From Gammaproteobacteria bacterium (GTDB taxonomy: Bacteria; Pseudomonadota; Gammaproteobacteria; SG8-11), in the NCBI GenBank assembly GCA_013151345.1, contig JAADIM010000115.1:1-35899 (forward strand): 35,899 nt of DNA, given 5' to 3'. Shown here piece after piece: positions 2,724-34,020 of the stretch (positions are counted from its first letter, which is position 1; every line of letters begins with the position of its first letter). A program made the position numbers and the translations under genes. The notes under the pieces were generated by a model, which saw only the letters and a list, made by a program, of their open reading frames with translations, was not told where the DNA came from and did not search any database.

Positions 2724-3257
2724 ATGGCAGAACCTTTTGTAAGTGAAATGCGCATGTTTGGTTTTGGCTGGGCGCCACGAGGTTGGGCGCAATGCGATGG
2801 ACAAAGCTTACCGATCAGTCAAAATCAAACTTTGTATTCGTTATTGGGGACCAGCTTTGGTGGCGACGGACGTACCAGTTTTAACTTACCCGATATGCGC
2901 AGTCGAGTGCCGGTGCACAGTCATGGTAGTGCTAATATCCCTTTAGGTACAGCGGGCGGCACTCAGTCTGTGACTCTTACATCAGAGCAATTAGCGACGC
3001 ATACTCATACCATGAAAGCGACCACCAGCAATGGGAATGCGATGACCTTTACCGGAAACATAATTGCTGCGGGATTCGACAATCGTCCTGATAAACAGCT
3101 GCCGGTCGATATGTATGGTCCTGCTGCTAATCTAGTGAGTTTAAACACTCAAAGTGTTTCAAGTAATGGTTCGGGAATGTCCCATGATAATATGCAGCCC
3201 TCTACGGTGGTTAATTTTTGTATCGCGCTTAGCGGTCTATTCCCGTCAAGAAATTAA
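2724..3257 (+). CDS. phage tail-collar domain protein (MdpB-like), paralog 1
   Basis: MAEPFVSEMRMFGFGWAPRGWAQCDGQSLPISQNQTLYSLLGTSFGGDGRTSFNLPDMRSRVPVHSH; SD GAGGAGAA. Confidence 0.9.
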   Translation: MAEPFVSEMRMFGFGWAPRGWAQCDGQSLPISQNQTLYSLLGTSFGGDGRTSFNLPDMRSRVPVHSHGSANIPLGTAGGTQSVTLTSEQLATHTHTMKATTSNGNAMTFTGNIIAAGFDNRPDKQLPVDMYGPAANLVSLNTQSVSSNGSGMSHDNMQPSTVVNFCIALSGLFPSRN

Positions 3258-3273
3258 TTAAGGAGAACAGAAT

Positions 3274-3807
3274 ATGAGTGATCCCTATTTAGGTGAAATG
3301 CGCATGTTTGCAGGTAATTTTGCGCCGCGATCCTGGGCATTTTGTAACGGTGCTTTGTTGTCAGTGGCAGAGAATAACGCGTTGTTTTCTTTATTAGGTA
3401 CAACGTATGGGGGTGATGGTCGCACTACGTTTGCTTTGCCGGAAATGCGTGGCCGATTACCGGTGCATCATGGTCAGGGTCCCGGCTTGTCCGACCGCCG
3501 CTTAGGAACGAAATTGGGTTCAGAAAGTGTCACATTGAACACGACCCAAATGCCAAATCATCATCACATCTTAAATGCGAGTACTGACGTGGCGAGTTCA
3601 AGCAATCCTGCCGGTGATGTTTTGGCATCACAAAATGACGGTGATATTCCTTATGCTACACAACCGGAAGATCCAGTCAACGTCGAAAACATGAACAGTC
3701 AAACTCTCGCAATGGCAGGCGGCAATCAATTTCATAACAACATGATGCCTTATCTTTCCATTAGCTTTATTATCGCCCTATTCGGTATCTATCCGAGCCG
3801 GTCTTAA
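3274..3807 (+). CDS. phage tail-collar domain protein (MdpB-like), paralog 2
   Basis: MSDPYLGEMRMFAGNFAPRSWAFCNGALLSVAENNALFSLLGTTYGGDGRTTFALPEMRGRLPVHHGQGPG; SD AAGGAGAA. Confidence 0.9.
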   Translation: MSDPYLGEMRMFAGNFAPRSWAFCNGALLSVAENNALFSLLGTTYGGDGRTTFALPEMRGRLPVHHGQGPGLSDRRLGTKLGSESVTLNTTQMPNHHHILNASTDVASSSNPAGDVLASQNDGDIPYATQPEDPVNVENMNSQTLAMAGGNQFHNNMMPYLSISFIIALFGIYPSRS

Positions 3808-3818
3808 GGAGAATTATT

Positions 3819-4358
3819 ATGTCAGAACCCTTTATTGCGGAAGTAAGAATGTGGGGCTGTAATTATGCTCCCCGTGGCTGGGCTTTTTGCGATGGTCAAT
3901 TATTGCCTGTCGCCGAAAATACGGCTCTATTTTCTCTTGTAGGTACGCTTTACGGTGGTGACGGTCGTACGACACTGGGCTTGCCTAATTTAACGGATCG
4001 GTCGCCGATGCAACAAGGTAGTGGACCCGGTTTGTCCAGCAGACCGATTGGTCAATTCGGAGGCACGGCTCAAGAGGTATTAGCAGAAGCACAAATTCCA
4101 ACCCATGACCATATTGTTAGAGGCGTTACAGCAGCAGGTAGCGCTGCTACACCCGCCAGCGACCTATATATGGGGCAAGATAAATCATCACGCGGCGAAA
4201 GTATCTTTTATACGTCGACAGATACGACAATGAATACAACGCTATCTGCTGAGGCGATAGGGGCGAGTGGTTCAAGTCAGGCGCATGAGAATCAGCAACC
4301 TTTTTTAGGTGTTAACTTTTGTATTGCTTTGCAAGGGATATATCCTTCAAGATCTTGA
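3819..4358 (+). CDS. phage tail-collar domain protein (MdpB-like), paralog 3
   Basis: MSEPFIAEVRMWGCNYAPRGWAFCDGQLLPVAENTALFSLVGTLYGGDGRTTLGLPNLTDRSPMQQGSGPG; SD AAGGAGAA. Confidence 0.9.
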   Translation: MSEPFIAEVRMWGCNYAPRGWAFCDGQLLPVAENTALFSLVGTLYGGDGRTTLGLPNLTDRSPMQQGSGPGLSSRPIGQFGGTAQEVLAEAQIPTHDHIVRGVTAAGSAATPASDLYMGQDKSSRGESIFYTSTDTTMNTTLSAEAIGASGSSQAHENQQPFLGVNFCIALQGIYPSRS

Positions 4359-5378: not shown

Positions 5379-8300
5379 ATGAAGAATCGGTTCCATTCTC
5401 AGCATGACGGACATTCATTATTGCATCGTACCGCATTCGCATCTGCTATCGCCCTGGCGCTGAGTCCTGTCGCTACCAGTCATGCCTCAATACTGGCTTT
5501 GTCGAAACCGGATGTGTTCACGCCTGAAACGTTTGCTTTAGCTGTACCGATGGTAGCACTGCCCATGGCATCCATCGCGGCACCGCTAATTGTAAAGGCA
5601 CCACTAACGGTAAAACAGCCGCATACTGGCGAGCTGCAAATTCTCACCGGCGGCAGTCAAATCGTCTTCATTGATGCCGCAGTGATTGATTACCAAACAC
5701 TGGTTAATGGCCTTGCGCCTGGCGCTGAGGTTTATCTGCTCGATAACCAGCACGATGGTGTGCGACAGATGGCTAAGATTCTTGGCCGCTACCGCAATGT
5801 ACAGGCCGTACACATCATTGCTCACGGTGAAGAGGCGAGTGTGCAATTGGGTAGTGTTACCTTTGATACCAATACGCTGTCAAATAATTACCAAAGTGAG
5901 ATGAACACTATTCGTCAGGCATTGGCTGAGGATAGCGATCTGTTGGTGCATAGCTGTAACACCGGTCGCGGTGCTGCAGGACGCAATTTCGTTGAAGAGC
6001 TCGCCATGGTTACTGGCGCCGATGTCGCTGCCTCTGATGACCTGACCGGTAGCACCGCGCAAGGCGCAGATTGGGAACTTGAAATCAGCAGCGGTTCTAT
6101 CGAAACCGGTTCTCCTTTTTCGGCGGCGGCATTACGAGATTTCAGTGACGTGCTGGCGCTACCGGCGGATAACACCATATTTGATTTTAGCTCATTTTCC
6201 GGTTCGGGCAGCAATACGCTGACGAATACTTACTTCAACGTGACCGCCGACGATAGTACTGGGGCGAAACCATTGACTATCTACGCTGCTTCGGTGGCGT
6301 ATATAAACTCTGCTACCACGAATGTCACCGGTGCATTCTTCAACGTGGTGGCGGATGGGGTAGATGTTGGCACGTTCCAGCTGACCACGGTGGTTATGGG
6401 AGACTATTCGGCGGCGGCCAATTTTTCAGGTTTTTATATCAAGGGCTATATGTCCGGCGGTGGCACGGTGTTGTCCACCACGAAGAACGGCACGGACGGT
6501 GTGCAGGATACATTCACGTTCAGCGGTGCCGATATGAGCAACTTTGTCGGGGTAAATCTGACGTCGTTCAAGGTTTTCTTCAACGAGGACGATGCTAGCG
6601 CCATTCCCGTTACGGATGCCGAGTTCCGCAGCTTCACCACCACTGGCGCCGCCGCGCCTGCCCCCGCTAACACAGCGCCCACAATTACCGGAACCCCTGT
6701 CAGTGTTACCGTCACGGAAGACGTCGCGACGGATGTTAATCTCTCGGCGGTTACTTTCGCCGACGTAGACGGTGATACGCTAACGGTTACTTTAACTGCA
6801 AACGCCGGAACCATCGCTTCTGCAGGTGGTAATGGTGTATTTGGTGGTGTAACGATTGCAAGTTCCGGCACATCTGCGATGACGCTGGCAGGGACGGCAG
6901 CCAATATCAACACCTTTCTTGATACCACCACCAACATCAAATACACGTCCGCTGCCAACGACACGACGTCACGGAACATCGCCGTTAAGGCCAATGATGC
7001 TACGGTTGATTCATCGATTAGTAATATCACTGTGAACATCACCGCCATAGGTGACACCCCTAGTGTGACTAATGCCAGTACCGATGAAGATGTACAAAGT
7101 ACATCAGGCCTGGTAGTGACGCGTAACGCAGCTGATAGCACTGAAGTGACGGATTTTAAAATCACCAGCATTACCGGCGGTAGCTTGTTCCAAAATGATG
7201 GCAGTACGCCGATTACCAATAATGCCTTTATTACGTTTGCCCAGGCCAACGCCGGGTTAAAATTTACCCCCACGGCTAATAGTAGTAGTAATGGTTCGTT
7301 TAATATCCAGGCGGGTACGGATGGGATTGGGGGCGGACTCTCTGCAGGGAGTGCGACAGCTACGATCACCGTTAATGCGGTTAATGATGATCCTTCCAAT
7401 GGGGGCACCTTACCGACCGATGTTATTGTTACTGAAGATGTCGCAGGCAATTTTGATATATCGGGCGTGACGCTTGTTGATCTGGATGCGGGTGTGAGTA
7501 ATGTGCTTGTTACGCTGACTGCAAGCGCCGGGATATTAGCGGCAACCACGGGGGGCAGTGTAACAGTAGGCGGCTCTGGTACCAGTACCTTAACGCTTAC
7601 CGGCACTGTTGCGAATATCGATACTTTTTTGAATACGGCCAGCAATATTCAATATACCGGTGCAACCGATGTTAATGGTAATAATGCCGCGACGGTTGCA
7701 GTTAAAATAAACGACGGCGGTAACACTGGCTCCGGGGGTGGCACCGATATCGCGCTGGGTACGGTTAATATGGATATCACGGCAGCGAACGATGCGCCCA
7801 CCAATATCGCCCTCTCTGCGACCAGTATCAATCAAAGCGCGACCGGCGCTGCGGCCAATGTAGGCAACTTAACGTCTACAGATATTGATGATGCGAGCTT
7901 TACTTATACGTTGGCTGCTTCCGGCACAGCCGCTAATGGGTTATGCGGTGCGGGTAATGATGCCAGCAATGCTAATTTTCAAATAACGACGGCCTCGTTT
8001 GAAACGGGGGGCACGTTGACGCCAGGCAGCTATAAAGCCTGTATCCAGACCAATGATGGCGACACGACGTTTGAAAAAACGTTTACCATTACGGTTAACG
8101 ATGATGCTGCGCCTACTATCAGTTCCGTCAGTATTCCCAACAACGCGCATAAAGTCGGTGATACGGTTACCGCAACCATTACGGTGGCGTCAGATACCGA
8201 AGATTATACTGCTGGCGGCTCTATCGCTGGAACCGTTGCCGGTTATACTTTAGGTGCTTTAAGCAAGACTAATAACACAACCTATACTGCGACGTTTACC

Positions 8301-11300
8301 ATTACCGATGGCGGTGCCGATGTCGCCGCTGCCAGCAGTGTGCCAGTGAACGTTACCTTAACTGATAACGCTGCCAATAGCAGTGCCGCCTTTACCACGG
8401 CGATCAGCCAGGCAAGCGATGCGATTTATGCGAATATACCGGATGTGGATTTAACCGCCAGCACTAATACCTTAGCGGAAGATGGCGGCACCTCCATGCT
8501 CACAGGCACTTTAAGTGGTAGTTTAAATAACCAATGGCCGGTGGATGTGACGGTGAATCTGGCTTACACCGGAACGGGCACCATCACCACCGACTATACC
8601 GGCGCGGCGGCTATCACCGTCACGTCGGGAAATTCATCTGGCACCACGTTGATCACTAGTCTCGCCGATACACTATTTGATGCCGCCGTTGCTGAAACCA
8701 TTATTGTGGATATCGATAGCTTGTCTGTCGGTAATGAAGGCGTCACTAACCAACAAACCCTCAGCATTACCGATGCGGAAACTGCGCCAACGACAATTCT
8801 ATCCGTCGGCAATGCGTCTGTCGCAGAAAATGGCGGCACGTCTACCATTAGCGCGACGTTGAATAATGCAACCTATGCTAATGTCACCGTTAACTTAACG
8901 TATAGCGGCAGCGCAACCCCCGGTGGGACTGATTACAATACCCCAAGCTCATCCATTATTATTTTGGCTGGAGCGACGTCAGGTAATGCCGTCACCGGTA
9001 TTACTTCGGTGGATGACGTCCTCGGTGAAGGCAATGAAACTATTATTATTGATGTCGCATCGGTCATTGGCGGTAGTGCGAGCGAAAACGGCACTCAACA
9101 ACAAACCGTCACCATTACTGATGATGAAGATACGACGGCGCCTATCATCAGCGCTGTCAGCATTGCCAACAACGCGCATAAAGTCGGTGATACCGTTACC
9201 GCAACCATTACTGTTGTTTCAGATACCGAAGATTATACTGCCGGCGGCTCTATCGCCGGCACCATTGATGGTTACGCATTAGGTGCTTTAAGCAAGATTA
9301 ATAACACTACCTATACCGCCACGTTTACCATTACCGATGGTGGCGCCGATGTCGCCGCTGCCAGCAGCGTGCCAGTGAACGTTACCTTAACCGATAACGC
9401 CGCCAATAGCAGTGCCGCTTTTACTACGGGGATCAGCCAGGCAAGTGATGCGATTTATGCGAATATCCCGGATGTGAATTTAATCGCCAGTACTAATACC
9501 TTAGCGGAAGATGGCGGCACCTCTACGCTCACAGGCACTTTAAGCGGCAGTTTAAATAACCAATGGCCAGTGGATGTGACGGTGAATCTGGCTTACACCG
9601 GAACGGGCACCATCGCCACCGACTATACCGGCGCTGCGTCTATCATTGTTGTATCCGGCAGTTCATCCAACACCACGGTGATCACCAGTCTCGCCGATAC
9701 GCTATTTGATGCCGCCGTCGCTGAAACCATTATTGTGGATATCGATAGCTTGTCTGTCGGTAATGAAGGTGTCACTAACCAGCAAATACTCAGCATTACC
9801 GATGCGGAAACAGCGCCAACAGCCACGCTCTCCGTCGGCAATGCGTCAGTGGCAGAAAATGGCGGCACGTCCACCATTACTGCAACGCTAGATAACGCGA
9901 CTTACGCCAATGTCACCGTTAACTTAATGTATAGCGGCACCGCAACTGCAGCAGGTGTTGATTACAATACCCCAAGCGCGTCTATTACAATTTTGGCCGG
10001 AGCGACGTCTGGCAGTGTAGTAACGGGTATTACCTCCGTGAACGATATTCTTATAGAGGGCAATGAAACTATCATTATTGATGTTGCCTCGGTAACAGGT
10101 GGCAGTGCGACCGAAAATGTTGTCCAGCAGAAAACCGTTAATATCATCGATGACGATGCACCTAGTGTGAGTTTAAGTGTTAGCGCTGCCGCGATAGCAG
10201 AAGCGGCTGGCACAAGCACTATTACAGCGACACTAAATAAAGTCACCTTTGCCGATGTAACGGTGACCTTAGGTTATACTGGCACCGCAACCAGCGTGAC
10301 TGATTATACCAAGTTCAACACGATTACTATTCTCACGGGCCAAACGACCGGAACAGCTGTTTTAACGGCGGTGCAAGATGCGTTAGTTGAAGTTGATGAA
10401 ACCATTATTGTGGATATCACTGGCGTTGCTGGTGGTGCTGCTGTTGAAAGCGGGGTGCAACAACAAACCGTTACTATCACCGACAATAAAGCACCTGTTA
10501 ACACCGTCTTGCCCGTGATCAGCGGCAACGGCTTAGTCGGCGTCACCTTAAGTACCAATGCTGGCACTTGGACAGATGCTGAAAACAACACATTAAGCTT
10601 TACCTACCAGTGGAAAGCAGCGGCTATTGACATCGCCGGTGCGACGACCAATAGTTACACAGTGACCAATGCGGAATTGGGTGCCGTGATCACTGCTGTT
10701 GTCACTGCCAACGATGGCATTAACACCGCTGTCTCCGTCACATCGAATGCGACCGCCGCTATAGATAGTGACTTTGATAATGATGGAACAGGCGACAGCA
10801 CAGATACTGATGATGACAACGATGGCATACCTGATGTCTGGGAGACGGCCAACGGGCTGAACCCACTGGATGCAAGTGATGCCAGTGGTGATCTTGATGG
10901 TGATGGTGTGAGTAACCTCGATGAGTTTTTGGCTTCCACTGATCCGACGGTCGATGACAACCCACCTGTCATCACGCCACCTGCTGATATTACGCTTGAT
11001 GCTGTGGGACTGTTTACGCCAGTTGATATTGGCGTAGCCAGTGCTAACGATGCACTAGATGGCGCTCTAACACCAGTTTCTGATGCGCCAAGCCACTTCA
11101 GCCCCGGCATCAATACGGTAACATGGAGTGCCACAGATGCGGCAGGAAATACGGGAAGCGCCACACAAACAGTGAACGTTAATCCTATGGCTGATTTTGC
11201 GAAAGATCAACTCACCTCAGAGGGCAGTACCGTTACCTTCCGCGTTATCCTCAACGGCGATGCGGTGAGCTATCCGGTGAGCGTGCCTTATACCGTGAGC

Positions 11301-11669
11301 GGCATCGCCGCTACGGACGGCAGTGACCACGACCTTAGCAGCGGTACTGCCATTATTAACAGCGGCACCGAAGTTGAAGTGAGCTTTACTACTGTCAATG
11401 ACGGCGCGGGTGAAGGGTCGGAAAATGTCGTGCTAACTATGGGTACACCGACTAATGCGGTAATTGGTTCTAAATTTAGCCATAATATCGATATTATAGA
11501 GGGCAATGTTGCACCCATAATCAGCCTGAGTGCTGATCAGGCTGCGGTTGAAACACTTATTGTGACGCTGGGGAATGGATCAGTGAGTGTTATCAGTAGC
11601 GTGTTTGATCCGAACACGGGTGATACTCAGGGCTACGATTGGAGTGCAACCGACAACGCCATTGATTGA
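5379..11669 (+). CDS. giant secreted protein: signal peptide, DUF4347, cadherin/VCBS-like and Calx-beta repeats, TSP3 and HYR-like regions (truncated by frameshift)
   Basis: 2096 aa; IVFIDAAVIDYQTLV...HIIAHGE...LLVHSCNTGRGAAGRNFVEELAMVTGADVAASDD (DUF4347); repeated AEDGGTS/AENGGTST...YTGTGTITTDY...ETIIVDI (Calx-beta); DTDDDNDGIPDVWE (TSP3-like). Confidence 0.85.
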   Translation: MKNRFHSQHDGHSLLHRTAFASAIALALSPVATSHASILALSKPDVFTPETFALAVPMVALPMASIAAPLIVKAPLTVKQPHTGELQILTGGSQIVFIDAAVIDYQTLVNGLAPGAEVYLLDNQHDGVRQMAKILGRYRNVQAVHIIAHGEEASVQLGSVTFDTNTLSNNYQSEMNTIRQALAEDSDLLVHSCNTGRGAAGRNFVEELAMVTGADVAASDDLTGSTAQGADWELEISSGSIETGSPFSAAALRDFSDVLALPADNTIFDFSSFSGSGSNTLTNTYFNVTADDSTGAKPLTIYAASVAYINSATTNVTGAFFNVVADGVDVGTFQLTTVVMGDYSAAANFSGFYIKGYMSGGGTVLSTTKNGTDGVQDTFTFSGADMSNFVGVNLTSFKVFFNEDDASAIPVTDAEFRSFTTTGAAAPAPANTAPTITGTPVSVTVTEDVATDVNLSAVTFADVDGDTLTVTLTANAGTIASAGGNGVFGGVTIASSGTSAMTLAGTAANINTFLDTTTNIKYTSAANDTTSRNIAVKANDATVDSSISNITVNITAIGDTPSVTNASTDEDVQSTSGLVVTRNAADSTEVTDFKITSITGGSLFQNDGSTPITNNAFITFAQANAGLKFTPTANSSSNGSFNIQAGTDGIGGGLSAGSATATITVNAVNDDPSNGGTLPTDVIVTEDVAGNFDISGVTLVDLDAGVSNVLVTLTASAGILAATTGGSVTVGGSGTSTLTLTGTVANIDTFLNTASNIQYTGATDVNGNNAATVAVKINDGGNTGSGGGTDIALGTVNMDITAANDAPTNIALSATSINQSATGAAANVGNLTSTDIDDASFTYTLAASGTAANGLCGAGNDASNANFQITTASFETGGTLTPGSYKACIQTNDGDTTFEKTFTITVNDDAAPTISSVSIPNNAHKVGDTVTATITVASDTEDYTAGGSIAGTVAGYTLGALSKTNNTTYTATFTITDGGADVAAASSVPVNVTLTDNAANSSAAFTTAISQASDAIYANIPDVDLTASTNTLAEDGGTSMLTGTLSGSLNNQWPVDVTVNLAYTGTGTITTDYTGAAAITVTSGNSSGTTLITSLADTLFDAAVAETIIVDIDSLSVGNEGVTNQQTLSITDAETAPTTILSVGNASVAENGGTSTISATLNNATYANVTVNLTYSGSATPGGTDYNTPSSSIIILAGATSGNAVTGITSVDDVLGEGNETIIIDVASVIGGSASENGTQQQTVTITDDEDTTAPIISAVSIANNAHKVGDTVTATITVVSDTEDYTAGGSIAGTIDGYALGALSKINNTTYTATFTITDGGADVAAASSVPVNVTLTDNAANSSAAFTTGISQASDAIYANIPDVNLIASTNTLAEDGGTSTLTGTLSGSLNNQWPVDVTVNLAYTGTGTIATDYTGAASIIVVSGSSSNTTVITSLADTLFDAAVAETIIVDIDSLSVGNEGVTNQQILSITDAETAPTATLSVGNASVAENGGTSTITATLDNATYANVTVNLMYSGTATAAGVDYNTPSASITILAGATSGSVVTGITSVNDILIEGNETIIIDVASVTGGSATENVVQQKTVNIIDDDAPSVSLSVSAAAIAEAAGTSTITATLNKVTFADVTVTLGYTGTATSVTDYTKFNTITILTGQTTGTAVLTAVQDALVEVDETIIVDITGVAGGAAVESGVQQQTVTITDNKAPVNTVLPVISGNGLVGVTLSTNAGTWTDAENNTLSFTYQWKAAAIDIAGATTNSYTVTNAELGAVITAVVTANDGINTAVSVTSNATAAIDSDFDNDGTGDSTDTDDDNDGIPDVWETANGLNPLDASDASGDLDGDGVSNLDEFLASTDPTVDDNPPVITPPADITLDAVGLFTPVDIGVASANDALDGALTPVSDAPSHFSPGINTVTWSATDAAGNTGSATQTVNVNPMADFAKDQLTSEGSTVTFRVILNGDAVSYPVSVPYTVSGIAATDGSDHDLSSGTAIINSGTEVEVSFTTVNDGAGEGSENVVLTMGTPTNAVIGSKFSHNIDIIEGNVAPIISLSADQAAVETLIVTLGNGSVSVISSVFDPNTGDTQGYDWSATDNAID
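8109..10157 (+). repeat. about 1029-bp tandem intragenic duplication (unit 1 8109-9137; unit 2 9138-about 10157)
   Basis: CAACGCGCAT(AAAGTCGGTGATA) at 8141 and 9170, offset exactly 1029 bp (343 codons); protein units near identical (NNAHKVGDTVTATITV.SDTEDYTAGGSIAGT...). Confidence 0.9.
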
Positions 11670-12670: not shown

Positions 12671-13151
12671 TGCCCGATTATGTGTGCCTGAATTCCGTGC
12701 CACATTTCTGAATTTAGGGGTATTTACAGGTCTTGTAAAATGTAGAGTAGGGGACACTGTGATCTTAACCCGATTTCACGCACACTCAGTTAAGCAACAA
12801 AGCGTTCTTAAAAATTTACCAGTGATTGGTAATCAATGTAAGAATGCTTTCGTTGACGATTGTAAAATATTTCTATGTAATTACTACTTATTATTTTCTT
12901 CCAGAATAGTATTGGTAACGCGGCCAGTAATAAAATTACGGCTGGAGGTGTATTGGCGCAGCTGATAAGGTTCCATCATTTACCACCAAATGATCTGTAA
13001 AGGTTGTACTCGGACTAGAGAATTCAAGCCGATGATCTAGCTCATTACCAGTGAAACTTGTAGAAAATGGAGTGATTGTACCTGGGGGAATTGAACACGG
13101 TTTCGATAGAAACACCATTAATGGTGAGGTCTACGAACTCAGTGGGAACGT

Positions 13152-13381
13152 TAATCCTAAATAAATCAGTTGAAGCTTCCGCTCCTGCTCACGCCCCTTG
13201 CCTACGTCCTGTAGGCAAATCGTAGCAAGGGTGCCTAAGGTGCTGAAGATAGCGTGTTTTTCCATTTTTTAAGGCGATCGCGTAGTTACTCTACGGGTGA
13301 GTCTTAAAAAATGGAAAAAAAACGCGTTAGATTCAGTGCGTTAGGCGTCCGCAGTAGATTCAACTGATTTATTTAGGTTAA
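13152..13381. repeat. long-palindrome repeat element, copy 1
   Basis: Terminal IR CCTAAATAAATCAGTTGA / TCAACTGATTTATTTAGG; nested stem TTTTTCCATTTTTTAAG / CTTAAAAAATGGAAAAA around GGCGATCGCGTAGTTACTCTACGGGTGAG; shared core with copy 2. Confidence 0.85.
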
Positions 13382-13606
13382 TCTCTCCGTCAGAGAATAC
13401 GTTAAAATCAAGTTGCCAGGTTTGATTAGTCGGAAGAACTACGGTTCCTTCTTTTTGGAAAAGTTGGCGATTTCTAAATGACTAGGCAAAAATAAGTATA
13501 TTGAGGATTCAAAATAGTTGAGGGCACCGATAACTTAACGGAATTGCTGATTAAGTGATTAAGTTACCAGTGTATCTGCTTGCGTAAATAACGCTTTTTA
13601 CTTCAA

Positions 13607-24187: not shown

Positions 24188-25576
24188 CTATTTTAAGGCG
24201 TATGTTGCATTAGGAAATTCCACTATCACCCTAAGCCCGCCAAAAGCTGATTTTTTTAATGCAATTCGTGCGTTATGTATTTCACCGATACGTTTTACGA
24301 TTGATAGGCCCAGGCCATAACCCGCAATTTTAGTTGCACTACAACGGTAAAATCGTTCAAATACTTTTTGCCGTTCTATGCCAGAGATACCTGGGCCGCT
24401 GTCATCTATTTCCAATAACGTTTGGCTCTTTTTTTGGTAAATTGTTACTTTTACTTTCCCGTTCTCCGGTGTGTAATTTATTGCATTATCTATTAGGTTG
24501 CGCATCAGTATCGGAATTAAACCAAGCCTGGCGGAAATAACAAAAGGCTGATACGCATTCAAGCTTATGTCTAAATTTTTCTCTAATGCTTTGGGGGCCT
24601 GATTTGCAATGACGTCTTTGGCCATCTTGGAGAGATCCAACTGTTCTGTTTTTTGCAAACTGTCCTCTGGATCCAGGCGTGATAACGTCAAAAGTTGCTC
24701 TACCAGGGTAGAAAGCTGACAGACTTCATCGAATATTTCATCTACTGCCTCGATGCGAGATGGTTCGTCCTTGGCTTTAATTGCGAGTTGTGAGTGTATT
24801 TTTAGTACCGCCAATGGCGTACGTAATTCATGCGCTGCATCTGAGGTAAAGCGACGTATATTCTCAAACGCTTTATACAAACGATCAAAAAGGCGATTCA
24901 ATGCTGAAATCATTTTATCGACTTCAACTGGGATGGCACCAGTGCTAATTGGGTGTAGGTCATCTGATTTTCTATTTTCAATTTCTTTAGCGATTTTCTT
25001 TAAGGGCGCCATTGCTCGACCGACACTGAAATATATAACTAGCGCTATGAAAGGTAAAATGATGGCCAGAGAGGTCATATAGTGGAAGGAGATTGCGTTT
25101 GTCAGCCTGTCTCTATCGGTGTAGTCAGCCATAATTTGCACTTGTATTGTTTTCTCTGAGTTAGAGATAGCATACGTTCGACGATTTGTGCCGTCTTCGA
25201 GTACGAGGTCTGAGAAAGTTTTCTCCCGTTCCGTTAGGCGATAATCTGGCGCGCTACTAGTGCGAACTGCCAATATGTCACCATTTAACCAGACCTGATA
25301 ATCGATAATTTGCTCGTAGACATTTTCATCTATTGGAAATGTTTGTGGCAGTCTGTTTGCTTGGTCGCTACCCTGTTGGTTAAACGCCAGCTGTTCGTGT
25401 AATTCATGGGCGCTCATATTTAGGAGAATTTTCGCTGATTGCTCCAATTGCGCATCAAACAGTTTTCCTACTTCGTTATGGGTTTCATTATAAATAATTA
25501 ATGAACTTATGGAGCATATAACAACAGAAAAGGTTATTAGCCAAATAAGCAACCTGCGTCGAATAGAATATTTCAT
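24188..25576 (-). CDS. two-component sensor histidine kinase (QseC-like)
   Basis: FTSDAAHELRTPLAVLKIHSQLA H-box, NLIDNAINYTPENG N-box, DDSGPGISGIERQKVFERFYR, GLGLSIVKRI; 4-bp overlap with the regulator gene. Confidence 0.9.
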   Translation of the reverse strand: MKYSIRRRLLIWLITFSVVICSISSLIIYNETHNEVGKLFDAQLEQSAKILLNMSAHELHEQLAFNQQGSDQANRLPQTFPIDENVYEQIIDYQVWLNGDILAVRTSSAPDYRLTEREKTFSDLVLEDGTNRRTYAISNSEKTIQVQIMADYTDRDRLTNAISFHYMTSLAIILPFIALVIYFSVGRAMAPLKKIAKEIENRKSDDLHPISTGAIPVEVDKMISALNRLFDRLYKAFENIRRFTSDAAHELRTPLAVLKIHSQLAIKAKDEPSRIEAVDEIFDEVCQLSTLVEQLLTLSRLDPEDSLQKTEQLDLSKMAKDVIANQAPKALEKNLDISLNAYQPFVISARLGLIPILMRNLIDNAINYTPENGKVKVTIYQKKSQTLLEIDDSGPGISGIERQKVFERFYRCSATKIAGYGLGLSIVKRIGEIHNARIALKKSAFGGLRVIVEFPNATYALK

Positions 25577-26235
25577 TTCAGGCTATCTACAATATAACCG
25601 ACTCCTCTAATAGTACGTATGAATTTGGCGCCGAATCGCTTGCGAATATTGTGAATATGTACTTCGAGCACATTGCTCTCGACATCGTTTTTCCAGGAAT
25701 AAAGACTTTCTTCCAATCGAGTTCTAGATTGTACTCGTCCCGCGTTTTCCAGCAATTTCTGTAAAATGGTGAATGAACGCGTAGGCATTTCAATAATTTT
25801 ACTCGCTTTGCGCACAGTCAGTGAAGCTGGATCCAACTCGATATCGCCGTAATTAACTACAGTTACCGTTCGACCAACAATACGACGTGACAGCGCGCGA
25901 ATACGTGCGCTCAATTCATCCAAATCAAAGGGTTTCACAACATAATCATCAGCACCACGATCCAGACCAGAAATACGATCATCAATAGAATCGCGTGCTG
26001 TTAGGATAAGCACTGGTAACGACATGCCCTCCTGACGTAATGTATCCAACACAGCCAGACCTGGAAGCATTGGTAAGCCTAGATCTAAAACAAATACGTC
26101 GTAGGTTTCATCTCTGAGCGCACTAAGTGCTGTGCTACCGTCTCTAACCCAATCGACGGCATGACCTTCATACCTTAAACCAGTGCGGATACCTTTGCCT
26201 AATTTTTCGTCGTCTTCAGCTAACAGTAATCTCAT
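25573..26235 (-). CDS. OmpR-family response regulator (QseB-like)
   Basis: LLLAEDDEKLGKGI...DVFVLDLGLPMLPG...VLILTARDSIDDRISGLDRGADDYVVKPFDLDEL; winged-helix C-terminus VLEVHIHNIRKRFG. Confidence 0.92.
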   Translation of the reverse strand: MRLLLAEDDEKLGKGIRTGLRYEGHAVDWVRDGSTALSALRDETYDVFVLDLGLPMLPGLAVLDTLRQEGMSLPVLILTARDSIDDRISGLDRGADDYVVKPFDLDELSARIRALSRRIVGRTVTVVNYGDIELDPASLTVRKASKIIEMPTRSFTILQKLLENAGRVQSRTRLEESLYSWKNDVESNVLEVHIHNIRKRFGAKFIRTIRGVGYIVDSLK

Positions 26236-26319: not shown

Positions 26320-26356
26320 AATAATGGGCGGCCATATTATTTAATCGCCCATTATT
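26320..26356. promoter_or_regulatory. 11-bp perfect inverted repeat (hairpin or operator)
   Basis: AATAATGGGCG (26320-26330) / CGCCCATTATT (26346-26356). Confidence 0.6.
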
Positions 26357-26454
26357 ATTAACTGAAAATTATTAACTGAAAATTATTAACTGAAGATTAT
26401 TAACTGAAGATTATTATTTGAAAATTATTAACAAAAAATTATGAACTAATAATT
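26357..26454. repeat. seven contiguous 14-bp repeats
   Basis: ATTAACTGAAAATT x2, ATTAACTGAAGATT x2, ATTATTTGAAAATT, ATTAACAAAAAATT, ATGAACTAATAATT. Confidence 0.9.
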
Positions 26455-26467
26455 ATAAGTTTATAAC

Positions 26468-27508
26468 TTAAGGTAAGATTTGATACGACGTTGACATACC
26501 CCCTAAGATATGATCAGAAACGTGACAATGGAAAATCCATTCGTCAGGATTATCAGCCTTCATGTCGGCCGTGATCATCGTTGCGGGTAATAGATTAACA
26601 ACATCGGTACGCCGGGCAAAGTCCTTAGCGCCTACAGTTACTGTTTTACCGTGCCAATGTGGCGTATGCAAATCCACTTCATTACCCATACCTAATACGT
26701 GCCAACGTATTTTATCTTCATTATTAGCAATTAATCCCTTTAAGTTACCAAAAATGTAACCATTGATGGAGTGCATCAAGCCGGGTTCTGTGCCACCTAA
26801 TTCATCGAATATAAAAAATGCGGTAACAAACTCCTGGTCTACACCGATAGGTGAGCCATCTGGCTTCGCTTGGCCTTTTCTGGTGATAATAATCGGGCCC
26901 AATAAACCAGCATTTGTTTCCGCAGGCTCATTAATGTGTGAATGGTACCACCATACTTTTGAACTTTGATCGCCCTTGGCCGGCCCACTTTCTTTATCTG
27001 CAACCCAATTATAAGTAAAACACGTCTGCGGTGCTATTTGGGCACCCGCGCCTTCTGGCGCACCACTGTTTACGCCTGTATAAGATGCACCTTCATTATC
27101 TTTTGTATACCGAAACCCATGTGGATGCATGCCAAGTGGACCAAAATTGGAATTATTACAAAAATGCACTTTGACCTTATCACCCACTTCTGCGCGTATA
27201 ATCGGCCCCAGGATACCCAACCATTCGGGTTGTGGTTTTTTTACAGAAAATGTTGCATCTGTATATTCTATATACCGTGTTTTATTAAACACGTGGCTAT
27301 TTGTCCAAGGTTGCGGAATAGCACAGGGTGCTGGTTGCCTCATACAGTTGCCAAGGTTTTGCCCACTGGGTGCGTAATCCCACACCACGTCTTCAGCTGC
27401 AACAAAATATTCCCGTGTTACGCCTGCAGCAGCTATACTTATATTGACACAACACGCAAATACAAGAATTCCCCCAGTAATATATGATCGTTTGATTTTA
27501 CTTTCCAT
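26468..27508 (-). CDS. ceruloplasmin-like multicopper oxidase
   Basis: Signal peptide; PEWLGILGPIIRAEVGDKVKVHF, HPHGFRYTKDNEGASY, VWWYHSHINE, HTPHWHG, WIFHCHVSDHILGGM copper motifs. Confidence 0.9.
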   Translation of the reverse strand: MESKIKRSYITGGILVFACCVNISIAAAGVTREYFVAAEDVVWDYAPSGQNLGNCMRQPAPCAIPQPWTNSHVFNKTRYIEYTDATFSVKKPQPEWLGILGPIIRAEVGDKVKVHFCNNSNFGPLGMHPHGFRYTKDNEGASYTGVNSGAPEGAGAQIAPQTCFTYNWVADKESGPAKGDQSSKVWWYHSHINEPAETNAGLLGPIIITRKGQAKPDGSPIGVDQEFVTAFFIFDELGGTEPGLMHSINGYIFGNLKGLIANNEDKIRWHVLGMGNEVDLHTPHWHGKTVTVGAKDFARRTDVVNLLPATMITADMKADNPDEWIFHCHVSDHILGGMSTSYQILP

Positions 27509-29118: not shown

Positions 29119-31053
29119 CTAGGAATTTACTTGGACTGGACGATATTGGCAAGTCTGATTTTCATAAAATCGCTCAATGGTCGAAATTATACCATCACTT
29201 GAAAGGTTGTAGTCAGTAAGAATTTGCTCTCTACTGCCGTGATTTGAAAATTCATCAGGTAAGCCGAGGTTAATGACCGGAATTTCAATGCCGTTTGCCA
29301 TTAGATACTCATTTACCGCGCTGCCAGCGCCGCCGGCAACGGCATTTTCTTCAATAGTAACAATTAAATTGTGGTTAGATGCCATTTGCATAATCAGTTT
29401 TTGATCAATTGGTTTCACAAATCGCATGTTTACAACGCTGGCATTTAAATTATCGCCGGCTTTCAGTGCCGATGCCACCATGCTTCCGAACGCAAGAATC
29501 GCGGTTTCAATTCCTTCGCGGCGAATCTCACCTTTGCCAATGGGTAACTTTGTCATTGTTTTTTCTATGCGGGCACCGGGACCCTTTCCGCGAGGATAAC
29601 GGACTGAGCACGGCGCATCGTGTATGAATCCGCTATAGAGCATTTGTCGGCATTCATTTTCATCAGCGGGCGCCATGACGACCATATTGGGTATGCAACG
29701 CAAAAAGCTGAAGTCGAAACTGCCTGCATGGGTTGCGCCATCCGGGCCAACAATGCCGGCTCTGTCAATTGCAAAAAGGACTGGCAGATTTTGAATAGCA
29801 ACATCGTGAATAAGTTGGTCGTAGGCGCGCTGTAAAAAAGTGGAGTAAACCGCAACAACCGGTTTTGCGTTTCCACAAGCTAACCCAGCGGCGAGGGTAA
29901 CACAGTGTTGTTCAGCGATACCGACATCTATATATTGTTTGGGATACAGTTTTGAAAATTCGACCAGTCCTGAGCCTTCGCACATCGCGGGTGTAATACC
30001 AATGAGACGTTTATCGATGGCGGCCATGTCGCAAATCCATTGGCCAAATACTTGCGTGTAGGTAAATTCTTTAGATGTAGTATTATTAGAAGAGTTATTA
30101 GACGCTTTTGCAGATTTATTTGCGGATATTGCTGCGGTAGTTTCCCCGGTTTCAGGATCAAATGGCGTAATGCCATGATAGTCGCAGGGATTTTTTTCTG
30201 CGGGTGCGTAACCTTTGCCTTTTTTAGTGACAACGTGCAGAAATCGCGGACCCTTGAGAGAGCGCAGGTTAGTTAACGTTGTTACCAGAGTATCAAGGTC
30301 GTGACCATCAATCGGGCCAATATAATTAAACCCAAGTTCTTCAAACAACGTACCTGGGATCACCATACCTTTTACATGTTCCTCGGCGCGACGCGCTAAT
30401 TCCCACATAGTGGGCATGACACCCAGTACTTTTTTACTGCCTTCGCGAACGGATGAATAGAGGCGACCAGATAATATTCTGGCGAGGTAATTTGACATAC
30501 CCCCCACATTAGGTGAGATGGACATGTCATTATCATTGAGAATAACCAGCAAGTTAGCATCAACATCGCCCGCGTGATTCAAGGCTTCGAATGCCATGCC
30601 GGCCGTCATTGCGCCATCGCCAATAATCGCAACCGCTTTTCGATCACTGCCTTCTTGTTGCGCGGCCAGCGCCATGCCTAACGCGGCACTTATAGATGTA
30701 CTTGAATGACCAGCGCCAAAGGTGTCATAGGGGCTTTCTGAGCGCTTTAGAAATCCTGAAAGACCATCTTTTTGCCTGATGGACGACATTCTATCTTTGC
30801 GGCCGGTTAAAATTTTATGCGGGTAGCCTTGATGGCCAACGTCCCAAACCAGCGGGTCATCGGGTGTATTAAATACGTAATGCAATGCCACTGTGAGCTC
30901 GACGGTACCTAGACTGGACGATAAATGTCCGCCGGTTTTACTAACAGATTGAATCAAATACTCGCGTACGGCATCTGCTAAACTGCGCAAATCATTCTGA
31001 GGCAATTTACGTATTTGTTCAGGGGTGTCAATGGTATCGAGTATACTGGACAT
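29119..31053 (-). CDS. dxs: 1-deoxy-D-xylulose-5-phosphate synthase
   Basis: 644 aa; [58 protein letters not shown]-type motif [18 protein letters not shown]. Confidence 0.95.
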
Positions 31054-31111: not shown

Positions 31112-31297
31112 GTTTAACCTAAATTAATCAGTTGAATTTGCTGCGGACGCCTAATGCACTGAACCTAAAGCATTTTTCCCTGGTTTTAGGCTCACTCGTA
31201 GAGTGACTACGCGATCGCCTAAAATTAGGGAAAAATGCTTTATCTTCAGCACCTTAGTCGTCCTCGCGACGATCCAACTGATTTATTTAAGTAAAAC
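31112..31297. repeat. long-palindrome repeat element, copy 2 (opposite orientation to copy 1)
   Basis: Terminal IR CGTTTAACCTAAATTAATCAGTTG / CAACTGATTTATTTAAGTAAAACG (21/24); reverse complement shares AAGGTGCTGAAGATA, GGCGATCGCGTAGT, ACTCTACG, TTCAGTGC.TTAGGCGTCCGCAG with copy 1. Confidence 0.85.
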
Positions 31298-33255: not shown

Positions 33256-33955
33256 TCACTCATTTGCAGCATATTTTAAAAGTGGAGAACCTCGTTTTTT
33301 CAGGGCTTTGAGATAGGTAGATTCATCATATGGCTTGTTGTCTTTCCAACACCTAAAAGCAATCCTGATCCATTTAAATGCCAATGCACGAATGACAGTA
33401 TTATGGGGTTTGCCTTTGCTAATTTGTTGATCGTAATAAGCCTTCGCCCAGAAAGAATAACGAATCGTTAACCCAGCCCATTCGACGAACGTTTGCCGTA
33501 AAAATGTTGGGCAACTGTACCTCCAATGAGTCCATTTCTTTTGCCCACTCTGCTCAGTCACAGGCGCGATACCGGCATATTTCTGTAAGTCTGATGTACA
33601 GTGATAGCGTTCTCGATTTACCCCAAAGGCGACGAGTAGGTGCGGCGTGAGTTGAGGCCCGGCACCTGGAAAGCGGTTAAAAATATTTTGGTCCTCTAAC
33701 GTTTTGTAAAGCTGTCTAATTTCACGGTCCATACGATCAATTGATTCGATGAGTAATTTGAATTGAGGGATTAGCACTTCGATCATGATCCGATTGGGTT
33801 CTATTACACCCGAATCATTGGTTAAAGCCTGCGCGGATTTAATATCCGAAAACCGTTTTTCATTTACTGCAGGATAACGTGAGTTATGCTGGTTAAAGAA
33901 ATTAAATAGCGTTTGTTTGCGTGCTTTTTTGATTGCCGCGAGAGTGAAAGTTCGG
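33256..33955 (-). mobile_element. 5'-truncated IS110-family transposase (Transposase_20 half only)
   Basis: LAAIKKARKQTLFNFFNQHNSRYPAVNEKRFSDIKSAQAL...FNRFPGAGPQLTPHLLVAFG...LQKYAGIAPVTEQSGQKKWTHWRYSCPTFLRQTF; open upstream of the ORF-track ATG but no N-terminal DEDD domain. Confidence 0.85.
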
Positions 33956-33962
33956 GGGACAC

Positions 33963-34020
33963 GAGTTCTGGGGACACAATACTAAATTCCGTGAAACTAA
34001 ATATTGTGTCCCCAGAACTC
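33963..34020. repeat. REP/RAYT-like palindromic unit
   Basis: GAGTTCTGGGGACACAATA (33963-33981) / TATTGTGTCCCCAGAACTC (34002-34020), perfect 19-bp inverted repeat. Confidence 0.75.

Follow-up and report, generated by a model that had tools for sequence, protein, structure and literature searches.

Two copies of a palindromic repeat

The window, that is, the whole 35,899-nucleotide stretch of DNA that was analysed, carries two copies of a palindromic repeat, the second of them inverted. The limits of both copies, their parts and the gene next to copy 2 are as follows:

13151-13155 (no strand): left TSD of copy 1, TTAAT, 5 bp, an exact match to the right TSD
13156-13377 (+): MITE copy 1, 222 bp, from TIR to TIR
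13156-13174 (+): left TIR of copy 1, CCTAAATAAATCAGTTGAA, an IS1380-type end
13175-13217 (+): extra 43-bp segment of copy 1, in long copies only
13217-13361 (+): conserved hairpin module of copy 1 (covariance model R2)
13235-13345 (+): core hairpin of copy 1 (model R1)
13359-13377 (-): right TIR of copy 1
13378-13382 (no strand): right TSD of copy 1, TTAAT, 5 bp
29119-31053 (-): dxs (1-deoxy-D-xylulose-5-phosphate synthase), downstream of copy 2
31118-31291 (-): MITE copy 2, 174 bp, TSD decayed
31134-31275 (-): conserved hairpin module of copy 2 (model R2)
31150-31257 (-): core hairpin of copy 2 (model R1)

The initial annotation had placed the two copies at 13152-13381 and 31112-31297; the elements are real, and their exact limits are those above. 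Its description of the pair can be read directly in the sequence, since both copies share their ends, the base AAGGTGCTGAAGATA / TTCAGTGCRTTAGGCGTCCGCAG and the apex, with stems that differ in sequence and are each self-complementary. The TIRs measure about 19 bp and the elements 174-222 bp. No ORF of at least 100 aa overlaps either copy, and a search of copy 1 for promoter-like sites gave none. The start of dxs lies 64 bp downstream of copy 2, and of the two strands of this copy, the one that folds better as RNA has the same sense as the dxs mRNA. The extra 43 bp of copy 1 (13175-13217) are absent from copy 2. Copy 1 was matched in plasmid records only through this segment (blastn query bases 18-63, which cover most of it), by Pseudoalteromonas megaplasmids, in one record of which the match adjoins an ISAs1 transposase gene. 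Element queries of types 1, 2 and 4 had no match among plasmid records, and the type-3 query matched one Pseudomonas plasmid.

Elsewhere in the window there are an inverted repeat with 26-bp arms (GAGTTCTGGGGACACAATACT...; 33963-34020) beside an IS110-type transposase fragment (33256-33786), 14-bp tandem repeats of the ATTATTAACTGAAA type (26340-26470) between the ORFs 25573-26235 and 26468-27508, three related ORFs side by side (2724-4358), the first of which encodes a phage tail collar domain protein (PF07484), and a 2096-aa protein with a DUF4347 domain and internal repeats (5379-11669).

A mobile family with IS1380-type ends

In blastn searches, copy 1 matches the host genome (2.18 Mb) at about 40 places, and the pattern of the family's ends (CCTAAATWAATCAGTTG) occurs 88 times, whereas the reversed control has no match, so that the repeat is not due to chance. 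Exact 5-bp TSDs, such as TTTAA, ATTAT, TTCAT and TTCAA, flank 30 of the 37 TIR-to-TIR elements of this genome (one of 38 tabulated rows was excluded as a spurious pairing) and also most type-1 copies in other genomes. Across the class, most members have type-1 ends, a length of 174-178 bp and exact 5-bp TSDs. Moreover, a genome of the same genus (G001) keeps an empty site upstream of dxs, where the distance from anchor to anchor is 85 bp instead of the 264 bp of the host, a difference of 179 that corresponds to 174 + 5, and the joined flanks align with G001 with small indels. In another genome, a copy of the element interrupts hypD (locus L049); removal of the element plus 5 bp restores the reading frame, and PF01924 then spans the junction with an E-value of 1.3e-122. 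Genes for an alpha/beta hydrolase and an IS110 transposase are among the others interrupted by insertions, and the insertions, judged by eye, showed no obvious bias in their orientation to neighbouring genes. Altogether, this is a short, non-coding and multicopy family with TIRs, TSDs and empty sites, as MITEs are.

The search for a transposase with matching ends led to the IS1380 family. Three intact IS1380-type elements, one from the same family as the host, found by a PF13701 search of relatives (L087), and two from a class-wide search (L158 and L159), have ends that share the layout CCTARANNNNNCAGTT with the MITE, the end of L159 being CCTAGATTAATCAGTTGAA. The transposase of the relatives lies above the cut-off of Pfam PF13701, and the IS1380 model of NCBIfam is its best-scoring family, yet below the cut-off of that model. 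In the host genome, which is 68.5% complete, no intact transposase was found, and the PF13701 search gave nothing at threshold; only a closer relative used as query brought up a decayed IS1380 copy on contig 131 (C131; L079), in which the transposase N-terminus is followed by a deletion and then by the C-terminal part, with the end CCTAAATTAATCAGTT lying some 150 bp ahead of that N-terminus. A decayed copy with the same end at the same spacing (L155) is found in JAADGF, also a host of the MITE, and the left end of both relics is that of the MITE. Furthermore, five of the six transposase-positive genomes in a sample of 369 also have the hairpin (P 1e-5 in a hypergeometric test, and 0.013 once the three training genomes are left out). 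From ends and TSDs that match those of IS1380-family insertion sequences, and from intact and decayed relatives that share the ends, we infer that the window repeats, MITEs without an enzyme of their own, are very probably moved in trans by IS1380-type transposases. Thus, among the identities put forward by the initial annotation, that of a MITE is borne out by ends, 5-bp TSDs, empty sites and relatives.

The same module is not tied to one kind of end, and it occurs within at least four different terminal repeats. A similar module lies between the ends TAGCCCGGATTTCTCACC, a second IS1380-type end that in Marinobacter salarius flanks a gene annotated as IS1380-family, and between two further kinds of end without an assigned transposase. 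One of them, GGAGCCTGTCGGACTTAGG, delimits two hairpin elements of G001 (L187:1471-1631 and L208:558-720) that have the shared flanks GAATCGTYGCGAGG / CCGCAGTAGATTC, and it was seen as an end alone at L036:6917 (Cli_6); the other, GTTACCAACCACAAACAG, is the fourth kind and encloses the module at L231 (G258). Two genomes hold the same truncated form (L032 and L051), where the right half past the apex is replaced by GTAACGGTGTCCGCAGT.

A covarying hairpin with a strand bias

Among 18 close sequences (alignment A1), which are related and therefore not independent, 12 of 44 pairs show two-sided change, a value that none of 500 shuffles reached. Diverged members were found with a covariance model built after this close-copy alignment, and in 17 diverse sequences (A3) 26 of 48 pairs covary, above all 500 shuffles. 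For A4, an alignment fitted to R2 with 15 rows from 14 genomes outside training, of which the L212 row is an antisense hit, covariation extends to 34 of 48 pairs, with a score of 0.547 versus 0.223 in shuffled data and 0 of 500 shuffles reaching the observed one. Model R2, which includes the flanks and was trained on some of the genomes later tested, matches 28 of the 369 sampled gammaproteobacterial genomes. The further copies that the initial annotation called for do exist, therefore, both in the host genome and in relatives, and the compensatory change that it noticed in both arms is real, extending through A1, A3 and A4 far beyond the two copies of the window. Its 'invariant' apex holds among close copies only, and differs in other genomes. 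The step from arms that changed together to selection was too strong, because changes of this kind also arise by template switching in palindromes (PMC8794818), and tracts of arm-to-arm conversion are seen in some copies. In this line, covariation alone is no proof of RNA function, since template-switch repair of the palindrome may contribute to it. No hairpin match was obtained at the Rfam gathering threshold in the window or in 14 related loci, and by E-value the element and other loci had only sub-threshold, unrelated matches. With base pairing preserved through changes of sequence, the long hairpin suggests a structured part, as RNA (or single-stranded DNA), that is absent from the Rfam matches.

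A second line of evidence comes from the two strands. All 38 close copies, which share ancestry, fold better on the same one strand, and their non-canonical pair types are weakly biased to G-U (14 versus 6 column types). In a test of 33 members, taken as one to three per genome and oriented by the conserved flanks, G-U pairs outnumber A-C ones in 30 (168 versus 61), and purine-purine mismatches exceed pyrimidine-pyrimidine ones in all 33. The A3 pairs 25:122 and 26:121 remain mostly G-U while neighbouring pairs covary. That the mismatches are mostly G-U or purine-purine on one strand suggests that an RNA, or DNA in single-stranded form, is under constraint. Taken together with covariation, these strand-specific G-U and purine-purine mismatches make the structured ncRNA of the initial annotation a plausible reading. 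A pairing of the apical loop with bases just downstream is mentioned here only as a possibility.

Interpretation and alternative explanations

The reading that we favour, with a probability of roughly 0.84, is that of MITEs mobilised in trans by IS1380-family (DDE) transposases, with a cargo constrained as a one-strand structure, kept up in part by template switching and possibly acting on host mRNAs. The ends CCTARANNNNNCAGTTG would be the recognition sites of these transposases, insertion would duplicate 5 bp of an A/T-rich target, and cross-mobilisation of the MITEs would indeed take place. The structure on one strand would most likely be an RNA hairpin with purine-rich internal loops, whose arms template-switch repair of the palindrome may help to stay complementary. 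When co-transcribed, the hairpin might act on the host mRNA, for instance as an RNase III substrate or as a stabiliser in a 5' or 3' UTR; copy 2, upstream of dxs, would be a candidate for such an action and may affect dxs expression. More tentatively, and leaning towards doubt, we consider that IS1380-family MITEs may carry structured RNAs of a widespread class not described before. Their hairpin would combine G-U pairs that are conserved, internal loops rich in purines and an apical stem whose loop might form a pseudoknot with downstream bases, and two or more IS1380 end types would have retained it either for the life cycle of the element (e.g., binding of the transposase or a host factor) or for tuning host mRNAs.

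A functionless hairpin might preserve its complementarity through template switching during replication and arm-to-arm repair, by which one arm serves as the template for the other. RNA hairpins can arise and persist through template switching (PMC8794818), a process that also homogenises the arms of inverted repeats and inverts their spacers (PMC8604942). In this regard, L062 (right arm) and L008 (left arm) have tracts of several bases that pair perfectly with the opposite arm at positions where sister copies have mismatches, and L033 and L053 in Cli_6 have tracts of similar look. However, L062 and L008 belong to a fragmented assembly in which the N runs of the fetched loci are confined to these elements; moreover, this process predicts a symmetric loss of mismatches, whereas one strand retains G-U pairs and purine-purine mismatches in many genomes, with the two retained G-U pairs of A3 among covarying neighbours, so that as a full account of the hairpin it seems to us rather unlikely. 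The reverse possibility, a core that is an RNA gene (a small RNA or a cis-regulatory hairpin) useful to the host and travelling in IS1380-type elements, would agree with the covariation, the strand bias and a module found within four or more different terminal repeats, and Coxiella MITEs do yield small RNAs (PMC5896051). We hold it to be distinctly unlikely, as the patchy distribution (28 of 369 genomes), the many copies per genome, the insertions inside genes and the lack of a visible pattern in position or orientation fit a selfish element.

The way in which the elements move leaves little room for the hairpin-recognising enzyme proposed initially, either a Y1 transposase of the REP/RAYT kind or integron attC-like recombination. 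The long hairpin would suit such an enzyme, as would a GTTAGGC in copy 1 that we take to be R'-like by the box consensus, but the elements have TIRs of DDE type and exact 5-bp TSDs, and they share their ends with IS1380 relatives; the attC and REP/RAYT readings were discarded on these ends and TSDs, and any mobilisation of this sort is very improbable. Hardly credible at all is that the whole family is an assembly artefact of the metagenome-assembled genome. It is true that N runs and short tandem duplications lie inside many own-genome copies and that the contig of L181 folds back, but the same element with TSDs appears in separately assembled genomes, some of them in few contigs (nine in G285), and there are empty sites. 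What is uncertain is the interior of single copies, because the N runs of the fetched own-genome loci lie only inside the elements, and several of these interior details are probably artefacts. The short tandem duplications of the host genome (L009, L010, L014, L016, L025-L029, L061 and L063), each at a different position inside the element, probably arose by scaffold joining, because N runs sit at similar places; together with the flipped apex of L024 and the perfect palindrome of L181, they were set aside.

Comparison with known systems

As MITEs of IS1380 type, the repeats of the window represent a bacterial MITE family tied to a named transposase family and offer broad natural data on a hairpin with co-evolving arms, in which RNA selection and template switching as sources of covariation can be asked about directly, and which also bears on whether IS1380-type elements carry functional RNA. 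REP/RAYT hairpin elements rely on a Y1 transposase and show no target duplication. Like the window family, REP/REPIN sequences moved by RAYT are hairpins, dispersed and mobilised in trans, but REPs are palindromes of 20-40 bp (PMC3733652), and the window family has exact 5-bp TSDs and DDE-type ends. Closer in form are QMITE1 and QMITE2 of Coxiella, the Correia elements of Neisseria and ERIC, which are likewise short, non-coding and present in many copies, with terminal repeats and transcripts able to form a stable hairpin (PMC5896051, PMC10969869). The window family differs from them in its IS1380-type ends, in a hairpin that covaries across many genomes and in the shared layout of base and apex. 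No IS1380-linked MITE was found in the literature searched, and one may exist elsewhere. Regarding the insertion sequences themselves, ISEcp1 is a member of the IS1380 family. Its ends read CCTAGATTCTACGT on one side and CCTAAATTCCACGT on the other, with 5-bp repeats, and IS1380-family elements including ISEcp1 share with the window family ends that begin with CCTA[GA]A and 5-bp TSDs (ISEcp1: PMC7864471); a PF13701 transposase is encoded by the relatives found. On the other hand, the window element, with its 174-222 bp, has no transposase, and the CAGTTG that marks positions 12-17 in the end clade of the window is absent from ISEcp1.
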